Source: Tannerella sp.
Lineage (GTDB): Bacteria > Bacteroidota > Bacteroidia > Bacteroidales > Tannerellaceae
Direction: 5' to 3'
Length of the DNA stretch: 10,056 nucleotides
NCBI GenBank assembly: GCA_031260095.1
Contig: JAIRKN010000176.1
Location: 1-10,056 of the forward strand
Every line of letters starts with the position of its first letter. Within the stretch, counting starts at the first letter, position 1. Positions 1,029 to 9,961 of the stretch are shown here, one piece after another. The notes under the pieces are model-generated. The model ran no database searches. It saw nothing but the letters and a program-made list of their open reading frames with translations, and was not told where the DNA came from. The position numbers were made by a program, and so were the translations under genes.

Positions 1029-1811
1029 TTACCGTAAAGGAGCTTTGAGCGGATCATGGATCGGCGAACTTCGGCGGCTGCGGTTATAACTGCGGTACGG
1101 ATCGGGTTCGATTTCAACGCAGGGTTCGACCCACTCGTCGCGCGGCTCACAAATAAAACGGATATACTTTATATTTAGTCCGCGATCAAGCCATTGTTGT
1201 TCATAATAAGTCCGTATGGATAAAATTTCGTCTGCCATGCCGGAGTGATAGAGATGATCCGTACAAACCTGTACGGGATAACGATTTGCTTTTATCATTT
1301 CGCAGGTATAGGTATACAGGAAGCGACTGTCTGTTTTGAGATGAATAACGCCGTCGCCGGACAATATTTCGCTATACAGGCGCATAAAACGTGTACTTGT
1401 GAGGCGTTTATTTACTTTTTTCATTTGAGGATCGGGGAAAGTGAGCCATATCTCGGCCACTTCACCCGGAGCAAAGAAGTGAGCGAGAAGCTCTATATTC
1501 GTTCTGAGAAAGGCGACGTTTGTCATGCCTGCTTCCAGCGATTCTTTAGCGCCGGCCCACATCCGGGCGCCTTTAACGTCGATCCCGATGAAATTCTTCC
1601 CGGGGAAAAGCCTTCCGAGTCCGGTCGTATATTCTCCGCGTCCGCAGCCGAGTTCAAGCACCAATGGATGATGATTTCCGAAAACCTCCTCACTCCATCG
1701 TCCTTTTTGCGGGCATCCGCCTTCCGGTTGCAACACCGCTGCATAAGGATATTGGAATACGTGCGGAAAGCCGGCCATGTCGTCAAATTTCTTTAATTTA
1801 TTTTTTCCCAT
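1029..1811 (-). CDS. trmB: tRNA (guanine-N7-)-methyltransferase TrmB
   Basis: TrmB uses S-adenosylmethionine to methylate N7 of G46 in the variable loop of tRNAs. The 260-residue product has the class I methyltransferase fold. SAM-binding motif I is [10 protein letters not shown] (52-61) and the acidic strand-2 motif is GIDVKGARM (76-84). The family signature [14 protein letters not shown] lies at 124-137; the common form in other phyla is FPDPWPKKRHHKRR. The C-terminal substrate-binding motif [10 protein letters not shown] is at 198-207. The last 40 residues form a polar, Arg/Ser-rich tail beyond the conserved core. The ATG at 1809-1811 gives a normal N-terminus (MGKNKLKKF) and lies about 55 nt downstream of a promoter candidate at 1874-1881. 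mrp follows. Family assignment is secure; the link to mrp looks like simple housekeeping co-transcription. Confidence 0.95.
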
Positions 1812-1873
1812 ATACGTTTAAAAAAAGTGGGGGGGCAAGCCGAAACATTCCCCGGATCATTTCTAACAGAGTG

Positions 1874-1881
1874 CAAAAATA
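1874..1881 (-). promoter_or_regulatory. Promoter -7 element for trmB-mrp
   Basis: On the minus strand this reads TATTTTTG, an exact match to the Bacteroidetes -7 consensus TAnnTTTG. It sits just downstream of the kinase-operon terminator and would put the trmB transcript start near 1867, leaving a 5' UTR of about 55 nt. I see no good -33 TTTG at the expected spacing, so the call rests on the -7 box and its position. Confidence 0.5.
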
Positions 1882-1882
1882 G

Positions 1883-1920
1883 AAAAAAAAACGGATCTTA
1901 TAGATACGTCTGCGACCGTT
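1883..1920 (-). terminator. Intrinsic terminator of the response regulator-kinase operon
   Basis: The hairpin starts right after the kinase TAA (1921-1923). On the minus strand AACGG pairs with CCGTT, and an inner ATCT-ATA-AGAT hairpin strengthens the structure. The 3' arm runs straight into nine T residues (A's at 1883-1891 on the plus strand). The outer stem is short and interrupted by an internal loop, but the long U-tract and its place directly behind a stop codon support termination. Confidence 0.6.
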
Positions 1921-3207
1921 TTACATTCGGATCCGAAAACGGGTCAGCCCGTCCTCGTCTGTTTGCAAAGAAAAAGTATAGCCATGTTTGTTTAATACTT
2001 CACGGATAAAAATAAGTCCCAGCCCTTGTCCATTGGGTTTGGTCGAGAAGAAGGGACTGAACAGTTTGTTTTTCGTTTCTTTATCAATCCCTTTTCCGGT
2101 ATCGGCAATTTCGAGGCAAACCGGATCGTTCGACGTACGGATGTATATTTCCCCGTCTTTTCCGATCGCTTCGACGGAATTTTTAAGGATGTTAACCAGT
2201 ACCTGTTCAAAAAGCACGCTATCTATTTTTACCACGGGAGGGTGGTCCGATAATTCCATCACGATCCGTATATTTTGGTTTCGGCAGACATTTTCCATGA
2301 AGCGTTTCCCGGAAGAAACCAGTTGATTGAGATCCTCTTCCCGCAGTTGAGGTTCCGGGATGCGCACCACGTCCGCAAAATCAGTAATAAAACGGCTCAT
2401 ACTGTAACAGCGTTCGACAGCGATCTGTAATACATCGTGCAGTTCCGTATCTTTGAATGTATCCAGCAGCGTATCCAGCGTCGAAGTGATACCTGCGGTT
2501 GTATTATTCACTTCATGTGCGATCATACGGATGACTTTCTCGTAGGCTTTTTTCTCTGCTTTGAAAACGTCTTCGGTCAGCGATTCGATCAGATGGAAAG
2601 GATGTTGAAACCCCCGGTCGAGAAAAGAGGAGTGCGTACATTTATATATACTGGCATTATTGAGGCGTATGATTTGTGAATCATACTTTTTTATAAGCGT
2701 CAATTCTGTTGCTAAGGGAGAAGCTATCCGGGTCAATTTTTTGCCGGTCATACTGTCGGAATATTTCAGGCCGAAAATTTTATAAGCAGCCGGATTAGCG
2801 GCCTGAATAGTTCCATCCGGATCAAGAATAATCACACCTAAGGGCGAGGCATTGATCAGCAGATCCAGGAAATGATTTTGTTCCCTCAGATAAAGACGTT
2901 CATTTTTGAGTTGATTCATCATTTTATTAAAAACATCCACGATACGGTCGGCGTCTGTTTGTCCCACGCGTCGCAGGCGGGAGCTGAAATCCTGTTCTTT
3001 CAACAGCGCCATGCCGTCGCCTATGATTTGTAGCGGTCTGATGATCCGCCGGTAAAAAACGAACAAATAAATTGCTGTGATAAAGATCAACACTTCCACC
3101 GCAATAAACACATAAAACGACGAAGCATAAAAGACGAAATAAGCCATTACGACCAGTATGACCAGCAATAAAAGCGTCAGTATCCAAAACAAACCTTTTA
3201 ATCTCAT
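1921..3207 (-). CDS. Membrane sensor histidine kinase, NtrY-like (TM-HAMP-PAS-HisKA-HATPase)
   Basis: This is a 428-residue inner-membrane histidine kinase, the partner of the sigma-54 regulator encoded 15 nt upstream. Two hydrophobic helices (about 6-27 and 30-52) are separated by only a few residues, so there is almost no periplasmic sensor. A HAMP-like linker (about 53-105) follows, then a PAS domain (about 112-210, starting FLDLLINASPLGVIILD). The phosphoacceptor box is MIAHEVNN with His231. The ATPase domain shows the N box (NILKNSVEA, 339-347), G1 (DTGKGI, 369-374), the F box region PFFSTK and G2 (GQGLGL, 393-398). All catalytic parts look intact, so it should be active. The signal is probably cytoplasmic or membrane-borne, read by PAS or the helices; no ligand can be inferred. 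The gene ends at a terminator. The family is certain, but no specific name is justified. Confidence 0.92.
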   Translation of the reverse strand: MRLKGLFWILTLLLLVILVVMAYFVFYASSFYVFIAVEVLIFITAIYLFVFYRRIIRPLQIIGDGMALLKEQDFSSRLRRVGQTDADRIVDVFNKMMNQLKNERLYLREQNHFLDLLINASPLGVIILDPDGTIQAANPAAYKIFGLKYSDSMTGKKLTRIASPLATELTLIKKYDSQIIRLNNASIYKCTHSSFLDRGFQHPFHLIESLTEDVFKAEKKAYEKVIRMIAHEVNNTTAGITSTLDTLLDTFKDTELHDVLQIAVERCYSMSRFITDFADVVRIPEPQLREEDLNQLVSSGKRFMENVCRNQNIRIVMELSDHPPVVKIDSVLFEQVLVNILKNSVEAIGKDGEIYIRTSNDPVCLEIADTGKGIDKETKNKLFSPFFSTKPNGQGLGLIFIREVLNKHGYTFSLQTDEDGLTRFRIRM

Positions 3208-3222
3208 AGTTTCGTTTTAATA

Positions 3223-4590
3223 TCAGGGAAGGGGGTCAATATTATATTTCTCCAGTCTTCGGTAGAGCGCAGCACGGCTTATGCCGAGTGCAGATGCGAT
3301 GCGCGAGATATTCCCGGAATATTTTTCGACGGCCTGGAGGATCGTTTGTTTTTCAACCTCATCGAGAGTAAGTCCCGACAGCGCAGTCAGTGATTTACCG
3401 GAAGGGGCGGCGGGTTGATTTTGTTTCTGAAAGTCGGAAGCGTCCAGGATCTTCTTTCCCGATACAAGCATTGTACGTTCGACCAGATTTTTCAATTCGC
3501 GGATATTTCCCGGATAGGGCAGACTTTTCAGATAAGCCATCGCTTCCGGCGTAAACGTCACTTTCTCCATATCGTTATTTTCCGCTTGTTTATCGGCAAA
3601 GTAAGAGGCCAGCAGCGGCAGATCTTCCTTTCTCTCCCGTAGCGGCGGCAGGTGCAGGGTTATCAGATTGATACGATAGAAGAGATCCTCGCGGAAGGTA
3701 CGGCTTGCGACCATTTGACGGAGGTCGCGGTTGGTAGCGCTTACCACCCGGACGTTCACTTTGCGCGGACGACTATCGCCCAACACTTCAAAGGTCTGGT
3801 CCTGTAATACCCGCAATAGTTTCACCTGGCAGGAAAGATCGAGGTCGCCCATCTCATCAAGAAAGATCGTACCTTTATCGGCCATTTCGAAGCGCCCTGT
3901 CCGATCCGCATGAGCGTCGGTGAACGAACCTTTTTTATGTCCGAACATTTCGCTTTCAAAAAGGCTTTGCGAGAGTCCTCCCAGATTAACCTTCACAAAC
4001 GCTTCCCCAACTCTCCGGCTGTTTTCATGAATCGCCTCCGCTATCAACTCTTTTCCGGTACCACTTTCTCCTGTAATCAAAACAGAAGCATTGGTAGGCG
4101 CAATCCGTGAGACGGTAATTAATATTTCCAACAGCGCCTCGCTTTTCCCTATGATCTTATCAAACCGGAATTTCTTATCAACGTCTGTCCGGTTCAACGG
4201 TTTCGCATCTTCATCCTCTTTCCGTGTAAGTTCGATAGCCGTATGAATAGAACTAAGCAGTTGTTGATTATTCCAGGGTTTTGTGACGAAGTCGAATGCT
4301 CCGTTCTGCATACCCAGTACCGCCAGAGAGATAGACCCCCATGCCGTAATCAGAATGACGGGCACATCCGGTTGAAAGATCCGTACCTGCTTCAAGAGTC
4401 GAAGCCCTTCTTCCCCGGACGCTGTGAGGGTGAAATTCATATCCATCAGAATCAACTGTGGAGCCGTCTGCCGGACAATATTCAACGCCTCTACCGGCCC
4501 GGAAACCGCCTGTGTCTCATAATCCGCGCGTTTCAACAGGAAAGTCAAAGAAGAGCGGACAGCAATATCATCATCTATTATTAATATCAT
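3223..4590 (-). CDS. NtrC-family sigma-54-dependent response regulator
   Basis: This 455-residue transcription activator works with RNA polymerase carrying sigma-54 after phosphorylation by the downstream kinase. The receiver domain (1-120) has acidic residues DDD (6-8), phosphoacceptor Asp50 (LMDMNF), Thr82 and Lys104. The AAA+ domain (about 145-375) shows Walker A GESGTGKE (174-181), Walker B GTIFLDEM (240-247) and the arginine-finger region REDLFYRIN (300-308). A Fis-type helix-turn-helix (about 428-449, NISRIASALGISRAALYRRL) ends the protein. The sigma-54-contact loop reads GSFTDA (221-226) in place of GAFTGA. I chose the ATG at 4588-4590 (MILIIDDD) over one at 4638: it gives a standard receiver N-terminus, and a promoter box at 4609-4616 lies inside the longer reading. 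Target genes are unknown; I found no sigma-54 promoter (TGGCAC-N5-TTGC type) in this window. Confidence 0.93.
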   Translation of the reverse strand: MILIIDDDIAVRSSLTFLLKRADYETQAVSGPVEALNIVRQTAPQLILMDMNFTLTASGEEGLRLLKQVRIFQPDVPVILITAWGSISLAVLGMQNGAFDFVTKPWNNQQLLSSIHTAIELTRKEDEDAKPLNRTDVDKKFRFDKIIGKSEALLEILITVSRIAPTNASVLITGESGTGKELIAEAIHENSRRVGEAFVKVNLGGLSQSLFESEMFGHKKGSFTDAHADRTGRFEMADKGTIFLDEMGDLDLSCQVKLLRVLQDQTFEVLGDSRPRKVNVRVVSATNRDLRQMVASRTFREDLFYRINLITLHLPPLRERKEDLPLLASYFADKQAENNDMEKVTFTPEAMAYLKSLPYPGNIRELKNLVERTMLVSGKKILDASDFQKQNQPAAPSGKSLTALSGLTLDEVEKQTILQAVEKYSGNISRIASALGISRAALYRRLEKYNIDPLP

Positions 4591-4608
4591 GATACAATTT
4601 TTATCAGC

Positions 4609-4639
4609 CAAATATACGCTTTTTTTACAAATAATCAAT
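4609..4639 (-). promoter_or_regulatory. Promoter for the response regulator-kinase operon
   Basis: The minus strand carries TATATTTG (4609-4616), an exact TAnnTTTG -7 box, with ATTG (4636-4639) 19 nt upstream as a near-match to the -33 TTTG. Transcription would start near 4602, about a dozen nt before the ATG at 4590. This supports the shorter start of the regulator gene and implies a very short leader. Confidence 0.6.
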
Positions 4640-4712
4640 AAAACGATGAAATACGCATCTAATTTTATTCTATCCTTTGATTTTCACCGCCGGCATAACA
4701 TGCCGCCACCAT

Positions 4713-4926
4713 GTCATTGCGAAAGCCGACCCCATTTCATGGAGGAAAAAGGGGAAATGACTACCTCATCATGGAGAGGAGCGCAGCGACGCGGCAATCC
4801 AGGGGTATACAGGGTGCTGGATTGCTTCACTGCGTTCACAATGACGAATAGTGAGAGGGCCGCCGCAATGACGAGGTATGTACCTGGATTGCTTCCTGCT
4901 TCGTTCCTCGCAGTCTGCAATGACGA
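4713..4926. repeat. Degenerate palindromic dispersed repeat (CERSEAIQ family), one whole and two partial copies
   Basis: The left end GTCATTGCGA (4713-4722) and right end CAATGACGA (4839-4847) bound an imperfect palindrome. Its centre is a perfect 9-bp inverted repeat, GCAATCCAG (4794-4802) and CTGGATTGC (4817-4825), around a 14-nt loop. The right half recurs downstream: CTGGATTGCTTC at 4817 and 4884, and CAATGACGA at 4839, 4866 and 4918. Between the left end and the centre lie about 50 nt that do not fit the palindrome, possibly an insertion or decay. In one minus-strand frame the block reads RHCERSEAIQ, a spurious peptide often annotated in genomes with this repeat type. It resembles a MITE- or REP-like non-coding element; no transposase is nearby. 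Confidence 0.7.
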
Positions 4927-4971
4927 TATTCTCCGGTGTGCCGAATCCGATTCGCGCTGTCCGGATCGCCA

Positions 4972-5034
4972 CGAGACTTCCGGAGGATCCTACAAAACTT
5001 CCGGAGGATCCTACGAGACTTCCGGAGCACGCTA
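4972..5034. repeat. Three tandem 21-bp repeats
   Basis: Units at 4972-4992, 4993-5013 and 5014-5034 share the core ACTTCCGGAGGATCCTA; the third differs near its 3' end (GCACGCTA). Units 1 and 3 begin CGAG and unit 2 begins CAAA. Each unit contains the palindrome TCCGGA, and the first two also contain GGATCC. The 21-bp period equals two helical turns and keeps a reading frame (ETSGGSY on the plus strand), but there is no supporting gene. They start about 45 nt past the palindromic repeat block. Confidence 0.8.
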
Positions 5035-5152
5035 CAAAATTTTACGGACTGACTTTATAAAGTTATGTAAGGTACAGTATAACAGATTCATCCATACACG
5101 CAAAATCTTTCCGGTAGAGAGTGTTCCGACGGTAGAATTTCTTTCGATCGGG

Positions 5153-5205
5153 CCGGCAGAGGCGTCCTTTTCGTGCCGGTTGGTATTGCGAACATAGCCT
5201 GTTCG
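5153..5205 (-). other. Stem-loops behind the transporter gene
   Basis: Thirty-seven nt past the transporter stop lies a perfect 6-bp stem, CGAACA (5189-5194) and TGTTCG (5200-5205), with a 5-nt loop. Farther on is CCGGCA/TGCCGG (5153-5158 and 5174-5179) with a 15-nt loop. Neither is followed by a T-run on the minus strand. They may protect the mRNA 3' end or help termination, but they do not make a standard intrinsic terminator. Confidence 0.35.
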
Positions 5206-5241
5206 TTGCGGCGAGAGGTTTTGTGCTTGTGTCCGTACGGA

Positions 5242-6900
5242 TTACAATGTCACCAATACAAATATCTGGGCCAGCAGGACGCGCAGGAACATCGTTAAAG
5301 GATATACCGTCGCATAAGCCGTGGCCTGCGCCTGGACAGGGGCTATCCCATTGGCAAACTCAAGGGCGGGAGGGTCTGTCATCGAACCGGCTATACATCC
5401 GCATAGTTTCAGGTAATTGACTTTCATCAGACGGGCAATGATACCGGCCGCCAGAAGGGGAATCCATGTGATTGCGATCCCGTATATCATCCATTTCCAG
5501 CCTCCGTTCATAATGGTTCCCACAAATTCCCCCCCCGACAACAAACCTACACAAGCAAGAAACAGAATGATACCCGTCTCACGCATAAAATAATTAGCCC
5601 CGGGCGTCATGTAAAAATTAAGTTTGCCGATACGTCCTTTATAACCCAGTATGATTGCGATTAAAAGCGGTCCGCCGGCAAGCCCAAGTTTGGCGGGTGC
5701 AGGAAGCCCCGGAATGAAGATCGGTATGCTGCCTAAGATGATTCCGATGAAAATACCCAGAAAAATAGACATTATATTAGGTTTCGCCAATTCATTGACC
5801 GAATCGCCCAACTCTTTTTTTACATCATTCAATACTTCCTTTTTTCCGACTACCTTTATCGTATCACCCAACTCCAGGGTCGTATGAAGGGTGGGAAGAA
5901 TCTTCATCCCCGACCGGAAAATCCGGGTAATGTTTGCCGGATAACGTCGATAGATCCCGACCTGTTCGATCGTTTTACCGGCCAGCTTCGGATTGGTCAT
6001 TAAAACATTAATGATCGCCAACGGACCGGAAACCTCTGTGTTTTCGGATATTCTCACTTTTCCGATCTTGAAATTCAGGCTTTCAATCATGTTTTGGGCC
6101 GATACGCCACAGATGATATCGCCTTCCTGAATGATTTCATCGTCTATCGCCAGGATTGATTCTCCGTAACGTACAATACGGGAAACCGCCAGTTCTTTGT
6201 CCATAATGTGCTTGACGAAATCAATGTTTTTGCCGAACAGGTTTGGATTGGAAACGGTTATTTCTACACTTTGCAGTTTCGTTTCATTGTCGCCCAGGCT
6301 ATCTGTGTATTTCTTTGTCTCAATATCGGTTTTTATTCTGAAAAACAATTTGATCAACAGAATGGTTAGAATAATTCCGATGATACCGAACGGGTAAGCC
6401 ATTGCGTACGCCATGCCTGTTTCCGAAACAACAGAGGCTTCTGTACCCTGTTCCGTAAGCGCCTGTTGGGCCGCCCCCAGACTGGGCGTATTCGTGACGG
6501 CGCCACACAGTATGCCGACTACAACAGCAGGGGATAAGTCCGTCAAAGAATAAATCAGATAAGCAATGCCAAAACCTCCTACTACGATTCCTATTGCAAA
6601 TAGATTTAATAACAGTCCGTCTTTTTTGAATGAAGAAAAAAAGCGCGGCCCCATATTCAGTCCGATACTGTAAATAAATAATACCAATCCGAAGTCACGG
6701 ACGAAATGCAGCGTATGCTCATCTACCGGCACTCCGAAGCAAGCGATCAGTATGCCGCTGAACAGTACCCCTCCTACTCCGAGTTTGATTCCTTTTGTCC
6801 CGGCTTTTCCTATTAATACGCCGGCAAAAGCAGCCATACATAAATAAAGCATGGTAGAGCCGACACTCTGCGTTGTGAAAAAATCTAATAAATACTTCAT
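5242..6900 (-). CDS. AspT/YidE-type transporter with two RCK_C domains
   Basis: This 552-residue inner-membrane protein belongs to the aspartate:alanine exchanger (AAE) family. It is built as a duplicated membrane domain around a cytosolic centre. Membrane half one (about 1-190) holds GAVTNTPSLGAAQQ (133-146) and AYAMAYPFGIIGIIL (164-178). Half two (about 375-552) holds the matching GSMTDPPALEFANG (505-518) and AYATVYPLTMFLRV (528-541). Between them lie two RCK_C (TrkA-C-like) modules, about 205-275 and 285-365. AspT of Tetragenococcus exchanges aspartate and alanine, but most YidE/YbjL-like members have no proven substrate, so I leave the substrate open. The ATG at 6898-6900 gives a good N-terminus, and length fits the family. 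It stands alone between nrdG and the regulator and has its own promoter candidate. Control by the neighbouring two-component system is possible but unsupported. Confidence 0.88.
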   Translation of the reverse strand: MKYLLDFFTTQSVGSTMLYLCMAAFAGVLIGKAGTKGIKLGVGGVLFSGILIACFGVPVDEHTLHFVRDFGLVLFIYSIGLNMGPRFFSSFKKDGLLLNLFAIGIVVGGFGIAYLIYSLTDLSPAVVVGILCGAVTNTPSLGAAQQALTEQGTEASVVSETGMAYAMAYPFGIIGIILTILLIKLFFRIKTDIETKKYTDSLGDNETKLQSVEITVSNPNLFGKNIDFVKHIMDKELAVSRIVRYGESILAIDDEIIQEGDIICGVSAQNMIESLNFKIGKVRISENTEVSGPLAIINVLMTNPKLAGKTIEQVGIYRRYPANITRIFRSGMKILPTLHTTLELGDTIKVVGKKEVLNDVKKELGDSVNELAKPNIMSIFLGIFIGIILGSIPIFIPGLPAPAKLGLAGGPLLIAIILGYKGRIGKLNFYMTPGANYFMRETGIILFLACVGLLSGGEFVGTIMNGGWKWMIYGIAITWIPLLAAGIIARLMKVNYLKLCGCIAGSMTDPPALEFANGIAPVQAQATAYATVYPLTMFLRVLLAQIFVLVTL

Positions 6901-7017
6901 ATATTTTTCTTCTTACATTAAAAATCCTTTGAGTCCAATTGTTTTACATGGTAAAAAGAAGAAGGAATAAAACCGCGCGCACTCCGGCTGAGGATAAAGA
7001 ATTGTCTTTTTCGGCCG

Positions 7018-7048
7018 CAAAACTACATGAAAATTCTGTGATTTCCAA
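7018..7048 (-). promoter_or_regulatory. Promoter candidate for the transporter gene
   Basis: The minus strand has TAGTTTTG (7018-7025), which fits TAnnTTTG, with TTG (7046-7048) 20 nt upstream in the -33 position. Transcription from near 7012 would give a 5' UTR of about 110 nt. The 201-nt gap between nrdG and the transporter suits an independent promoter. Confidence 0.45.
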
Positions 7049-7101
7049 GCGCGTGCGAAACGAAAAAAGTTTTTCTTTGAAATAATTGCATCGTAAAAAA
7101 A

Positions 7102-7569
7102 TCAGACTGTTTTTTTCTGAAAACAAGAAGAGATATCTATCATCTTATCCTCTCTTATCCGGTATAAACGTTGATTCGTCCTGACGGAATTCAGGCCGCC
7201 AAGCTCTTCTATATACGGGCCTAATTTGATATAATCGAAATGCCGGTGCGAACAGGCAGGCGGAATATGCTGTTTTCCCGAATACCAGGCGGTTTTTATG
7301 CGACCGGCATTGCGTATAAACAGCGCCAATTGCTCTATTTCCTGCGGGGCGGCGTCTCCACCCATAAAACAGATACAGGTAATCGCCTTTCCGTATTTAT
7401 TCATCAAATCCGTCAAGACGATTTCATCCAGTATCTCGCCCTTATCCTCCATCAGATGAGGGCTGTGGCATCCTTTACAGCGGTTGGGACAGTTTGACAG
7501 GTTAATGGCCAACGTGATTTCACCCGGGACTTCCTGAAATACTATATCATAACTGATGAATCGTAGCAT
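7102..7569 (-). CDS. nrdG: Anaerobic ribonucleotide reductase activating protein (radical SAM)
   Basis: NrdG reductively cleaves S-adenosylmethionine at a [4Fe-4S] cluster to install the glycyl radical on NrdD. The 155-residue product is of normal length. The cluster-binding CxxxCxxC is CPNRCKGC, Cys27, Cys31 and Cys34. GGDA (70-73, after CFM) matches the SAM-contacting GGE-type motif. The C-terminal part contains KLGPYIEELGGLNS and RTNQRLYRI, typical of this family. The ATG at 7567-7569 lies inside the end of nrdD, with a 23-nt overlap in a different frame. An AAGGAGG stretch lies 17 nt upstream within nrdD, farther than usual for a Shine-Dalgarno. Translational coupling to nrdD is likely. 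Being cotranscribed with nrdD, it shares any control by the B12 riboswitch. Confidence 0.95.
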   Translation of the reverse strand: MLRFISYDIVFQEVPGEITLAINLSNCPNRCKGCHSPHLMEDKGEILDEIVLTDLMNKYGKAITCICFMGGDAAPQEIEQLALFIRNAGRIKTAWYSGKQHIPPACSHRHFDYIKLGPYIEELGGLNSVRTNQRLYRIREDKMIDISSCFQKKTV

Positions 7570-9637
7570 AATGACGTTGTGCAGCCTCCTTCTGCCTGCT
7601 TTGGGAAAAATTACTGATGCGTTTCATATATCCGATGATACGGGTCAGGTAGTCCAGATTCTGACTTCCACACGACGGACACGTCTTCAGGTTTCGTTTA
7701 TCAATATGGTTACAATCACAACAAACCGTGTTCGGTATGTTGAATGTAAAATAATTGCACCCTTCCTGCGCTGCAATGCGTAGCAACTGACGGTATTGTT
7801 CCTTACTCAAGTGTTCGTCCAGATTGAGGTGTAGCGCCGATCCCCCGGTTAGATGTTCAATATACTGCCTTCCATGCAAGCGGAATTTATCAATGATGTT
7901 TAGCGATTTATCTTCTACAATATAGAAATAACTGTTGTAACAATCACGGTTTACTTTATATCCGTCACGCCTGTCCCATTTGGCATGTTTCACACCTACA
8001 TTTTCCGCGGGAATCATTTCACAATTGAACATCACTTCTTTTGTCCGGTACTTTTTGTTATAATTTTCAATAATACCCAGGATTTCCTGCACAAATTCGG
8101 CATAACGGGGATTGTCGTTAATCTCTATTCCCAGCGCCTCTGCCGCTTCTACCAATCCGTTCACTCCGATCGTCAGGTATTGGCGGCTCATATTGATATA
8201 GCCGGAATCAAATAAGGGCAACATTCCTTTTGCCTGCATATATTTCAGGTTATCATTGTAAGCCAGTTGCACTTTATGTACAAGGTCTACAATTTCTTCC
8301 AGGAAAAACCGGTACGGATACGATTTACGTAAAGCATGCTGAATACAACGGTTTAGATTGATCGTTAATACACTTTTCGAGCCGGTGGAAACGCCTCCGG
8401 CGCCTAAGGTATAACTAAATCCATTATCCTGAATTTCATTCCGTAACCGGCAACAACTACTTAACGAATCTGCATTGTCGCTGATATAAGTGAAGAACGA
8501 ATGTCCTTCGGCGTACATTTCGGCCGTAAAATCACCATATTCTTCGTCTTTTACATCGCCGTCTTCAGTCAGAAGCGCCATTGTTTCAACCGGAAATGTC
8601 AACACGGTACGCGTACGTTCATGGTTAAACCATTTCATAAAACGCTTTTGCAGCCAATTAAGCGAATCCCAGTCGGGTTTGCTTCCATCCGGAAAAACAA
8701 ATTCACTGAACAGGCTTTCAAAGTAATATTTGTCATAATAGGAGATATTCCAGAATACGGCCTGAAAATTCCTGGCTCCGGTAGGCTGGTTGATAGAATA
8801 AACAATCTGTTCAAAATAGTCGGTAATCACCTTGTCCAATATACGTTGTTTTTTAGACAGGTCTACCACCTTATCCACATTCAGGTAATAGTCGGGACCA
8901 TACTCCAACCCGATAAAATAATTCATGTACATCAGGAACTCAGGGGTTGCACAGGCTCCGCTAAGCATACTTGATACCATGAAGACCATGTTTACAAACC
9001 CGCCACAAAACGATTTCAGGTTGGTCGGGGCTTTGGAATTTCCTCCGATAGATGTCGTACCCCCGATCAGCCAGGGGTACATCGTGATACTGGCGCAATA
9101 ATTGGCAAGGCTTGTTTCATCATTTTTATAGATATAATGGTTATTCAGTAAGTCAAGGTATTTATCCGAGATTTCTTTTCCGTACATATCTTTAAGACGG
9201 TCGGTCAACATCCTTCGATTCAGGCGGATAAAGTTCGACTTGGGAAGTTCGCCGATAAGGGTTGCCATGTTTTTGTTCTCCACATTGGCATTCGAATCGT
9301 ATTTGCTTCCCGACGCTGCATTTTTGGCGTCGCAATAGTCCATCAGAAACTTGAGTTTATCCCTCACTTCCCGGTCTTCCTCATGTTTTTGCCGGTAAAG
9401 CATATAGGATTTGGCAACCGCATAGTATCTTTCCGCCATCAAAGCTACTTCTACTTGATTTTGTATATCCTCCACGGTAGCGCCTTCTTTCACACTTACC
9501 CGGCAGAGAATGTTGGTAATTACATCCTCCGTAGCAAAACTGCCCACTGATAGAAAAGCCTTTGCTATCGCATTCTTGATCTTTTCAATAGAGAAAACCT
9601 CTTTTTTTCCGTCCCTTTTGATAATGAATAGTTCCAT
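7547..9637 (-). CDS. nrdD: Class III anaerobic ribonucleoside-triphosphate reductase
   Basis: NrdD reduces ribonucleoside triphosphates to deoxyribonucleotides without oxygen, using a glycyl radical made by NrdG. The 696-residue product begins with an ATP-cone allosteric domain (about 1-90; FIIKRDGKKEVFSIEKIKNA at 4-23). The barrel follows, with Cys395/Cys396 in NADSLSSCCRLRNE as likely active-site cysteines. Near the C-terminus a zinc site shows CxxC twice (Cys639 and Cys642, Cys653 and Cys656), then RIIGY with the radical glycine at 669. All key parts are intact. I chose the ATG at 9635-9637 (MELFIIKRDG) because the ATP cone normally starts there; an in-frame ATG at 9691 would add 18 unconserved residues and lies in the leader. 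A cobalamin riboswitch lies upstream at 9787-9961, so expression is probably lowered when B12 is plentiful. Confidence 0.96.
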   Translation of the reverse strand: MELFIIKRDGKKEVFSIEKIKNAIAKAFLSVGSFATEDVITNILCRVSVKEGATVEDIQNQVEVALMAERYYAVAKSYMLYRQKHEEDREVRDKLKFLMDYCDAKNAASGSKYDSNANVENKNMATLIGELPKSNFIRLNRRMLTDRLKDMYGKEISDKYLDLLNNHYIYKNDETSLANYCASITMYPWLIGGTTSIGGNSKAPTNLKSFCGGFVNMVFMVSSMLSGACATPEFLMYMNYFIGLEYGPDYYLNVDKVVDLSKKQRILDKVITDYFEQIVYSINQPTGARNFQAVFWNISYYDKYYFESLFSEFVFPDGSKPDWDSLNWLQKRFMKWFNHERTRTVLTFPVETMALLTEDGDVKDEEYGDFTAEMYAEGHSFFTYISDNADSLSSCCRLRNEIQDNGFSYTLGAGGVSTGSKSVLTINLNRCIQHALRKSYPYRFFLEEIVDLVHKVQLAYNDNLKYMQAKGMLPLFDSGYINMSRQYLTIGVNGLVEAAEALGIEINDNPRYAEFVQEILGIIENYNKKYRTKEVMFNCEMIPAENVGVKHAKWDRRDGYKVNRDCYNSYFYIVEDKSLNIIDKFRLHGRQYIEHLTGGSALHLNLDEHLSKEQYRQLLRIAAQEGCNYFTFNIPNTVCCDCNHIDKRNLKTCPSCGSQNLDYLTRIIGYMKRISNFSQSRQKEAAQRHYATIHQL

Positions 9638-9651
9638 GATATAATCTTTTA

Positions 9652-9738
9652 TTAAAACATTTGCGATAAAAACATCCGAACAATTACCCACGGAGTGAAA
9701 AAAGGATCATACTTCAACGATTTGATAAAATCCTGCAT
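9652..9738 (-). CDS. Possible 28-codon upstream ORF in the nrdD leader
   Basis: Between the riboswitch and nrdD an ATG (9736-9738) opens a 28-codon frame that starts MQDFIKSLKYDPFFTPW and ends SQMF before TAA at 9652-9654, 14 nt before the nrdD start. It is rich in aromatic and hydrophobic residues, with no recognised domain. There is no Shine-Dalgarno, though real genes here lack one too. It overlaps the hairpins that may form the expression platform. It could be a leader peptide coupled to nrdD, or chance; a frame of this length is not surprising. Confidence 0.25.
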   Translation of the reverse strand: MQDFIKSLKYDPFFTPWVIVRMFLSQMF

Positions 9739-9747
9739 GTTTGAAGT
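9703..9747 (-). promoter_or_regulatory. Possible riboswitch expression platform: two competing hairpins
   Basis: On the minus strand ACTTCAA (9741-9747) can pair perfectly with TTGAAGT (9711-9717). Alternatively AGGAT (9730-9734) can pair with ATCCT (9703-9707), which runs into a T-run at 9698-9703. The second hairpin encloses one arm of the first, so they exclude each other, as in an anti-terminator/terminator switch. The terminator-like stem is only 5 bp with a 22-nt loop, so this reading is weak. Confidence 0.3.
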
Positions 9748-9786
9748 TCGTCTTGCCACTCTTCACCCGAAAGTCCGGAATCTGCT

Positions 9787-9961
9787 GATATGGCAGGTCT
9801 TCTGACTTGCCCGGCTAACGGACCTCCTTCCCGGATGCTCTCATAATTTATCCAGTGGAGTTTTTTTCCTGTCCGAAGCTCTTCTACGGGCTTACAGCTA
9901 CGGGGATAGTTCCCGAATTACACAGGATTCCCTTTTCATCCGGAATAACCGGAACCATATC
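9787..9961 (-). promoter_or_regulatory. Cobalamin (B12) riboswitch aptamer
   Basis: Read on the minus strand, the conserved blocks occur in the right order. GGGAATCCTGTG is at 9921-9932 and CTATCCCCGTAGCTGTAAG at 9891-9909. The B12-box core CCACTGG is at 9852-9858, GGGAAGG at 9826-9832 and AAGTCAGAAGACCTGCC at 9792-9808. A 7-bp closing P1 helix, GATATGG (9955-9961) with CCATATC (9787-9793), bounds the element. Such aptamers bind adenosylcobalamin or other cobalamins and usually switch the downstream gene off. The next gene is nrdD, 149 nt away, so the target is the nrdDG operon. The promoter lies just upstream, placing the transcript start at about the first P1 base. Confidence 0.93.

Follow-up and report, generated by a model that had tools for sequence, protein, structure and literature searches.

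A cobalamin riboswitch upstream of a divergent class III ribonucleotide reductase operon in Tannerella, with truncated counterparts in close relatives

The stretch of DNA analysed here, a 10,056-nucleotide contig of a Tannerella sp. (JAIRKN010000176.1, assembly GCA_031260095.1; hereafter the window), carries on its reverse strand a complete cobalamin (vitamin B12) riboswitch aptamer directly upstream of nrdDG, which encodes a class III glycyl-radical ribonucleotide reductase and its activase. We consider it probable that, as predicted from the sequence, this riboswitch turns nrdDG down at high cellular B12 levels, with the B12-dependent class II reductase NrdJ then likely supplying the DNA precursors. 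The features that support this reading are collected in Table 1.

Results

The aptamer, its promoter box and the kissing-loop hairpin

The aptamer is matched by the Rfam family RF00174 from end to end, far above the gathering score of 31.5 bits, and a second covariance model (R1), built from 25 aptamers of relatives, matches positions 9973-9775 (-) of the window at 136 bits. The original prediction, which had proposed a complete aptamer at this place, was correct in both respects. Within the window no other Rfam family passes its cut-off and a tRNA scan found nothing, and RF00174 is matched only once in the window's own assembly, in the nrdDG leader. The 137 nucleotides between aptamer and nrdD are free of genes, as had been claimed; the lone entry near the leader in the list of open reading frames (ORFs) is a mechanical frame of 51-52 codons overlapping the aptamer 5' end.

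The promoter consensus of Bacteroidetes has the -7 element TAnnTTTG, and a box of this type, TATCTTTG, abuts the first aptamer helix. Of the 49 homologous nrdD leaders (out of 51) with enough upstream sequence, 45 have the pattern in the 80 nucleotides around the 5' boundary of the aptamer, compared with a mean of 2.85 and a maximum of 7 in 200 mononucleotide shuffles. No single clear spacing of a -33 element was seen across the leaders, and a sigma-70 promoter scan of the window gave no match on the relevant strand. The earlier proposal that the riboswitch has its own promoter is upheld as regards the predicted -7 box, and the transcription start is a predicted one.

Corrinoid riboswitches switch through a kissing contact that loop L5 (consensus UCCCG) makes with loop L13, part of a hairpin termed P13 (PMC10653944; PMC9600662; published work is cited here from excerpts of its text). 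Both partners can be recognised in the window, where P13 lies about 120 nucleotides from the nrdD start. The complement of the last four bases of L5 is found just 3' of the aptamer in 48 of the 50 leaders with a readable L5 (of 51), whereas 500 shuffles give a mean of 12.5 and a maximum of 22. The halves of the P13 stem also covary, the native pairing beating partner swaps at 50 loci (0/200 swaps as good); the leaders in both statistics are related and hence not independent. Hairpins with a CGGG or variant loop also trail numerous further riboswitches in these genomes (43 listed, 10 of them labelled nrdD-linked), so that P13 is not specific to nrdD. One fold in which a P13 strand pairs with a downstream pyrimidine tract was rejected (mean z -0.3 versus dinucleotide shuffles, 172/200 swaps as good).

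Table 1. Features of the window and of the Mariniphaga sediminis locus L147 (positions in each row refer to the sequence named).
Sequence	Feature	Position	Strand	Evidence
Window	Cobalamin riboswitch aptamer, RF00174	9974-9775	(-)	Rfam 112.7 bits, E 3e-28, model positions 1-189 of 189
Window	TAnnTTTG promoter box TATCTTTG, predicted -7 element	9973-9966	(-)	Sequence; pattern recurrent in homologous leaders
Window	Aptamer loop L5, UCCCCG, half of predicted kissing loop	9906-9901	(-)	Sequence; L5 consensus UCCCG from PMC10653944 (excerpt)
Window	Leader, aptamer to nrdD start	9774-9638	(-)	137 nucleotides; no intrinsic terminator recognised
Window	Hairpin P13, ACUUU-CGGGUGA-AGAGU	9774-9758	(-)	Directly 3' of aptamer; stem covariation
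Window	Loop L13, CGGGUGA, other half of predicted kissing loop	9769-9763	(-)	CGGG complementary to CCCG of L5
Window	nrdD, class III glycyl-radical ribonucleotide reductase, TIGR02827 kind	9637-7547	(-)	NCBIfam TIGR02827 959.6 bits, cut-off 568.3; Pfam ATP-cone and NRDD
Window	nrdG, radical-SAM activase, NrdG3 kind (TIGR02826)	7569-7102	(-)	173.6 bits, cut-off 151.7
L147	Cobalamin riboswitch	1219-1407	Same as genes	Cobalamin aptamer model
L147	nrdB, class I small chain	1533-2519		Named from sequence
L147	nrdA, class I large chain	2532-4952		Named from sequence and sub-cut-off match to NrdJ model
L147	nrdD	4989-7109
L147	nrdG	7102-7563

A divergent class III reductase as the predicted target

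The nrdD and nrdG frames overlap by 23 nucleotides, and nrdD starts at the ATG at 9637, where the homology to the ATP-cone begins, although the ORF list gives a GTG at 9691. The canonical NrdD model TIGR02487 reaches 140.6 bits, far under its cut-off of 326.35, which together with the family matches in Table 1 assigns the enzyme to the divergent TIGR02827/NrdG3 type of class III reductase. Hallmarks of class III reductases are a C-terminal glycyl-radical motif, RxxGY, and a C-terminal set of cysteines. Both are present in the window's NrdD, and the residues concerned (R666, G669 and Y670; C639, C642, C653 and C656) are invariant in 10/10 aligned NrdD proteins. Motif and TIGR02827 score together bear out the claim that the predicted riboswitch target is a class III glycyl-radical enzyme. 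Of the solved structures, 4coi, which we take to be Thermotoga maritima NrdD, matches its sequence best. As a separate observation on enzymes of this class, the anaerobic ribonucleoside-triphosphate reductase BT_1998 of Bacteroides thetaiotaomicron was among the proteins enriched by a B12 probe, though class III enzymes need no B12 (PMC8941943).

Distribution among relatives and co-occurrence with NrdJ

GTDB species genomes were scanned with the ten aligned NrdD proteins, and the best 80 of 578 confirmed loci were analysed; by their titles, these belong to Bacteroidota, mostly Bacteroidales, or to broader groups. The 25-aptamer covariance model was used to check, as had been proposed, how common the arrangement is: at 50 of the 80 loci an aptamer lies directly upstream of nrdD and in its orientation, that of Bacteroides faecis (L109) included. 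Among the other 30, L094 has only 109 nucleotides upstream and cannot be judged; among the 50, the aptamer match of L095 is cut by a contig end.

NrdJ is encoded in the genomes of 48 of the 50 loci with an aptamer (missing for L092 and L140) and of 20 of 28 loci that lack one (missing for L107, L123, L128, L150, L151, L153, L154 and L157), an association with a Fisher p of 0.003 when kinship is ignored. These counts leave out L094, on account of its contig end, and L100, and L103 and L111 share one genome. The NrdJ absences are soft because metagenome-assembled genomes (MAGs) are incomplete.

Among 61 relative genomes, we counted 18 loci with an NrdD of the window's kind, as judged from scores and frames (ten were aligned), and 15 of them have a riboswitch directly upstream. 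The remaining three differ: in G005 the riboswitch lies two genes upstream, G028 bears a deletion scar, and nothing was seen at G035:C341. Four loci closer to the canonical NrdD family also carry a riboswitch (G035:C14, G040, G043 and G055), and 57 of the 61 genomes have RF00174 matches somewhere. In G044 and G054, which are nearly complete and lack NrdJ, nrdD has no riboswitch directly upstream. At one of the 15 loci with a riboswitch (L019, contig C174 of G034), an intact riboswitch precedes an nrdD that is 95% identical to the window's where aligned; its frame is interrupted in this metagenome assembly, which could be an assembly error.

Two other gene orders would serve the same logic. In Mariniphaga sediminis (L147:1219-7563), a single riboswitch heads nrdB-nrdA-nrdD-nrdG on one strand, and a full NrdJ is encoded elsewhere in the genome. 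In G005 (L161:2900-6506), the riboswitch is followed by genes for a TonB receptor and a DUF5074 protein, with nrdD only a few bases downstream; the best NCBIfam match of the receptor is the B12 receptor (90.4 bits, under the cut-off of 599.7).

Truncated leaders in close relatives

The two proteins nearest to that of the window in an 81-protein NrdD tree (in which G034 was not placed) come from loci where the aptamer is gone and a stump is kept. In G028 (L159), two segments can be aligned to the window: the promoter with the first 53 aptamer nucleotides (82%, E 1.1e-27), and the last 36 nucleotides of the leader with the nrdD start (81%, E 3.4e-15). The intervening 246 nucleotides are missing. 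In Parabacteroides sp. PH5-46 (L079:3500-3760), whose record title does not label it as a MAG, the promoter and the first 41 nucleotides of the aptamer are left (74%, E 2.6e-10). A third locus, from a MAG (L096:2640-2756), retains the 5' half of the aptamer (33.3 bits), with a coding region soon after. All three deletions spare the promoter box and the gene start, and NrdJ is present in all three genomes. The sequences of G028 and L096 come from metagenome or draft assemblies, in which misassembly is possible.

Because the deletion breakpoints differ, we take these three relatives to have lost the aptamer independently, as far as their sequences tell. On the NrdD tree as a whole, the best topology calls for 15 or more changes in the state of the aptamer, 8 of them forced by starred branches, and gain and loss are not separable there. 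A fourth candidate scar, L100, resembles the others by eye only (8.8 bits, E 3.7) and is not counted. There is about an even chance, in our estimate, that these leaders reflect a recurrent excision of B12 control in Bacteroidales, in which the core is deleted while promoter, nrdD start and NrdJ are kept; nrdDG would then be constitutive, with both reductases side by side, and the window's clade would be losing the switch around the window.

Predicted regulation and alternative readings

Transcription would start just after the TAnnTTTG box. Bound cobalamin would fix the L5-L13 contact and P13, and the fixed hairpin would cut nrdDG output, probably via a translation block, Rho-type termination or mRNA decay, which are proposed because no intrinsic terminator is recognisable. 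The B12-free glycyl-radical enzyme would thus be made when B12 is scarce, and DNA precursors would likely be made by NrdJ when it is plentiful. We infer that cobalamin represses nrdDG at this locus; in B. thetaiotaomicron, B12 lowers the mRNA downstream of the locus 2 B12 riboswitch by about 70-fold (PMC6143338).

Several results weigh against this reading. An intrinsic terminator is absent from the window and was recognised in only 3 of 51 leaders, inside the range of 0-3 found in ten shuffled sets, and masking of the nrdD start by pairing within the leader could not be established. Of the 80 loci, 30 have no aptamer directly upstream (with L094 not open to judgement), including close relatives that retain NrdJ. 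When relatedness is taken into account, only 7 usable pairs remain and the association between riboswitch and NrdJ is no longer significant (median p 0.5, sign test). The presence of NrdJ in G028, L079 and L096 indicates that the switch can be lost while NrdJ is still there, which counts against a strict form of the rule. Finally, in the window's own assembly, which is 73.3% complete and split into 284 contigs, the search for NrdJ was empty, and neither a ribonucleotide reductase large chain nor a class I small chain was found. The original prediction, that a B12-free isozyme is repressed by B12, is partly supported: the aptamer, the promoter box and the nrdDG target stand, and the kissing-loop hairpin and the NrdJ of nearly all aptamer-bearing relatives speak in its favour. 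It expected a class II NrdJ or a B12 salvage route elsewhere in this genome, and the absence of a B12-dependent reductase was among the outcomes that it named as refuting it.

We judge this absence of NrdJ likely to be a gap in the assembly rather than a true loss, because of the low completeness, because NrdJ (TIGR02504) is present in 34 of 36 congeners (and in 55 of the 61 relative genomes), and because its usual neighbour is missing too, which fits one missing block. This neighbour, the gene of an 898-residue protein, is present in 21 of 22 congeners searched and adjoins nrdJ in 19 of the 21 that have it; it was not found in the window's assembly, whereas the control search found it in 26 of 37 genomes. 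A gene of the nrdJ region that was found, on contig C176 (presumably fluoride-channel-like), is flanked by a different gene here, leaving the synteny test uninformative. The genome also encodes MetH and methylmalonyl-CoA mutase, both B12-dependent, from which it follows that the cell uses B12. If NrdJ had truly been lost, the riboswitch would only tune the sole reductase, or would itself be on its way to loss as in some close relatives. The 10 kb nrdJ region of G028, used as a query, also located no nrdJ in the assembly, in line with the empty NrdJ and large-chain searches; some close relatives are already without the aptamer; and an aptamer is likewise combined with a missing NrdJ at L092 and L140. 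Set against the congeners, the missing neighbour and the fragmentary assembly, such a loss appears unlikely.

An activating switch, in which B12 would free the nrdD start and raise nrdDG expression, is less plausible still, and we regard it as very improbable. One activating corrinoid riboswitch exists (PMC10653944), and in one fold the P13 region is paired with the nrdD start, a pairing in which native partners fit slightly better than exchanged ones. But this excess is weak (16/200 swaps as good), the measured B12-riboswitch genes of Bacteroides are repressed (PMC6143338; PMC8941943), and there would be little sense in B12 inducing an enzyme that does without it. That the aptamer is a non-functional relic, of the kind that close relatives keep at the same place, has the least to commend it and is barely credible, since the window retains an intact promoter box, aptamer core, L5, B12 box and L13, whereas the B12 box is missing in all four relic leaders checked (G028, L079, L096 and L100).

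Other features of the window

Positions 1921-4638 encode a histidine kinase and a sigma-54 response regulator, whose best models, AtoS and AtoC, are both matched under cut-off, and an intergenic stretch at about 4700-5050 is repeat-like, with repetitive frames. Another short repeat, some 35-50 bases long and distinct from this stretch, is common to G028 and to contigs C190, C189, C219, C206 and C272 of the window's genome.

Discussion

A B12-free reductase under a B12 riboswitch recalls Streptomyces, where the class Ia genes nrdABS are said to be so controlled (work attributed to Borovok in 2006), the target being of class I there and of class III here. For nrdDG itself, both the arrangement and the proposed logic are already in print for other bacterial groups. 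In 2004, Rodionov described B12 elements before nrdDG in bacteria that also have NrdJ (Desulfovibrio vulgaris and Desulfuromonas) and proposed repression, and the same source refers to still earlier sightings in other genomes (PMC545781). Element, target and proposed repression are those of the window; the difference is the phylum. In Propionibacterium acnes, cobalamin riboswitches are annotated before nrdDG and nrdAB, an early transcript end was seen for nrdAB, and NrdJ has no riboswitch (PMC3848588). Here too a B12-free reductase lies behind the riboswitch, in this case in an actinobacterium where nrdAB is controlled as well. In Candidatus Chlorobium antarcticum, of the phylum Chlorobi, a cobalamin riboswitch is likewise tied directly to nrdD; such switches are mainly translational in Chlorobi, and the excerpted text makes no argument from NrdJ (PMC8620254). 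No report of nrdDG behind a B12 riboswitch in Bacteroidota was found in the one open-licence library searched, and Rodionov 2003 and Vitreschak 2003 may contain one.

What is new here is, first, the three aptamer losses, which have differing breakpoints, spare promoter box and gene, and leave NrdJ in place. This pattern of loss is the most interesting part of the case, as intact and amputated leaders in close relatives amount to a natural experiment: if the rule holds, B12 should lower nrdDG expression in Parabacteroides strains with an intact leader, such as sp. 52 and PF5-9, and not in PH5-46. The second new element is the Mariniphaga cluster, where reductase genes of classes I and III follow a single B12 riboswitch and give the clearest statement of the logic that we have seen. 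With the nrdDG arrangement, the rule described in Desulfovibrio, Propionibacterium and Chlorobium would reach many Bacteroidota, the pair concerned in the window being the divergent NrdD/NrdG3. If the prediction is true, the supply of DNA precursors would be coupled to vitamin B12 in a phylum in which gut species compete for this vitamin.

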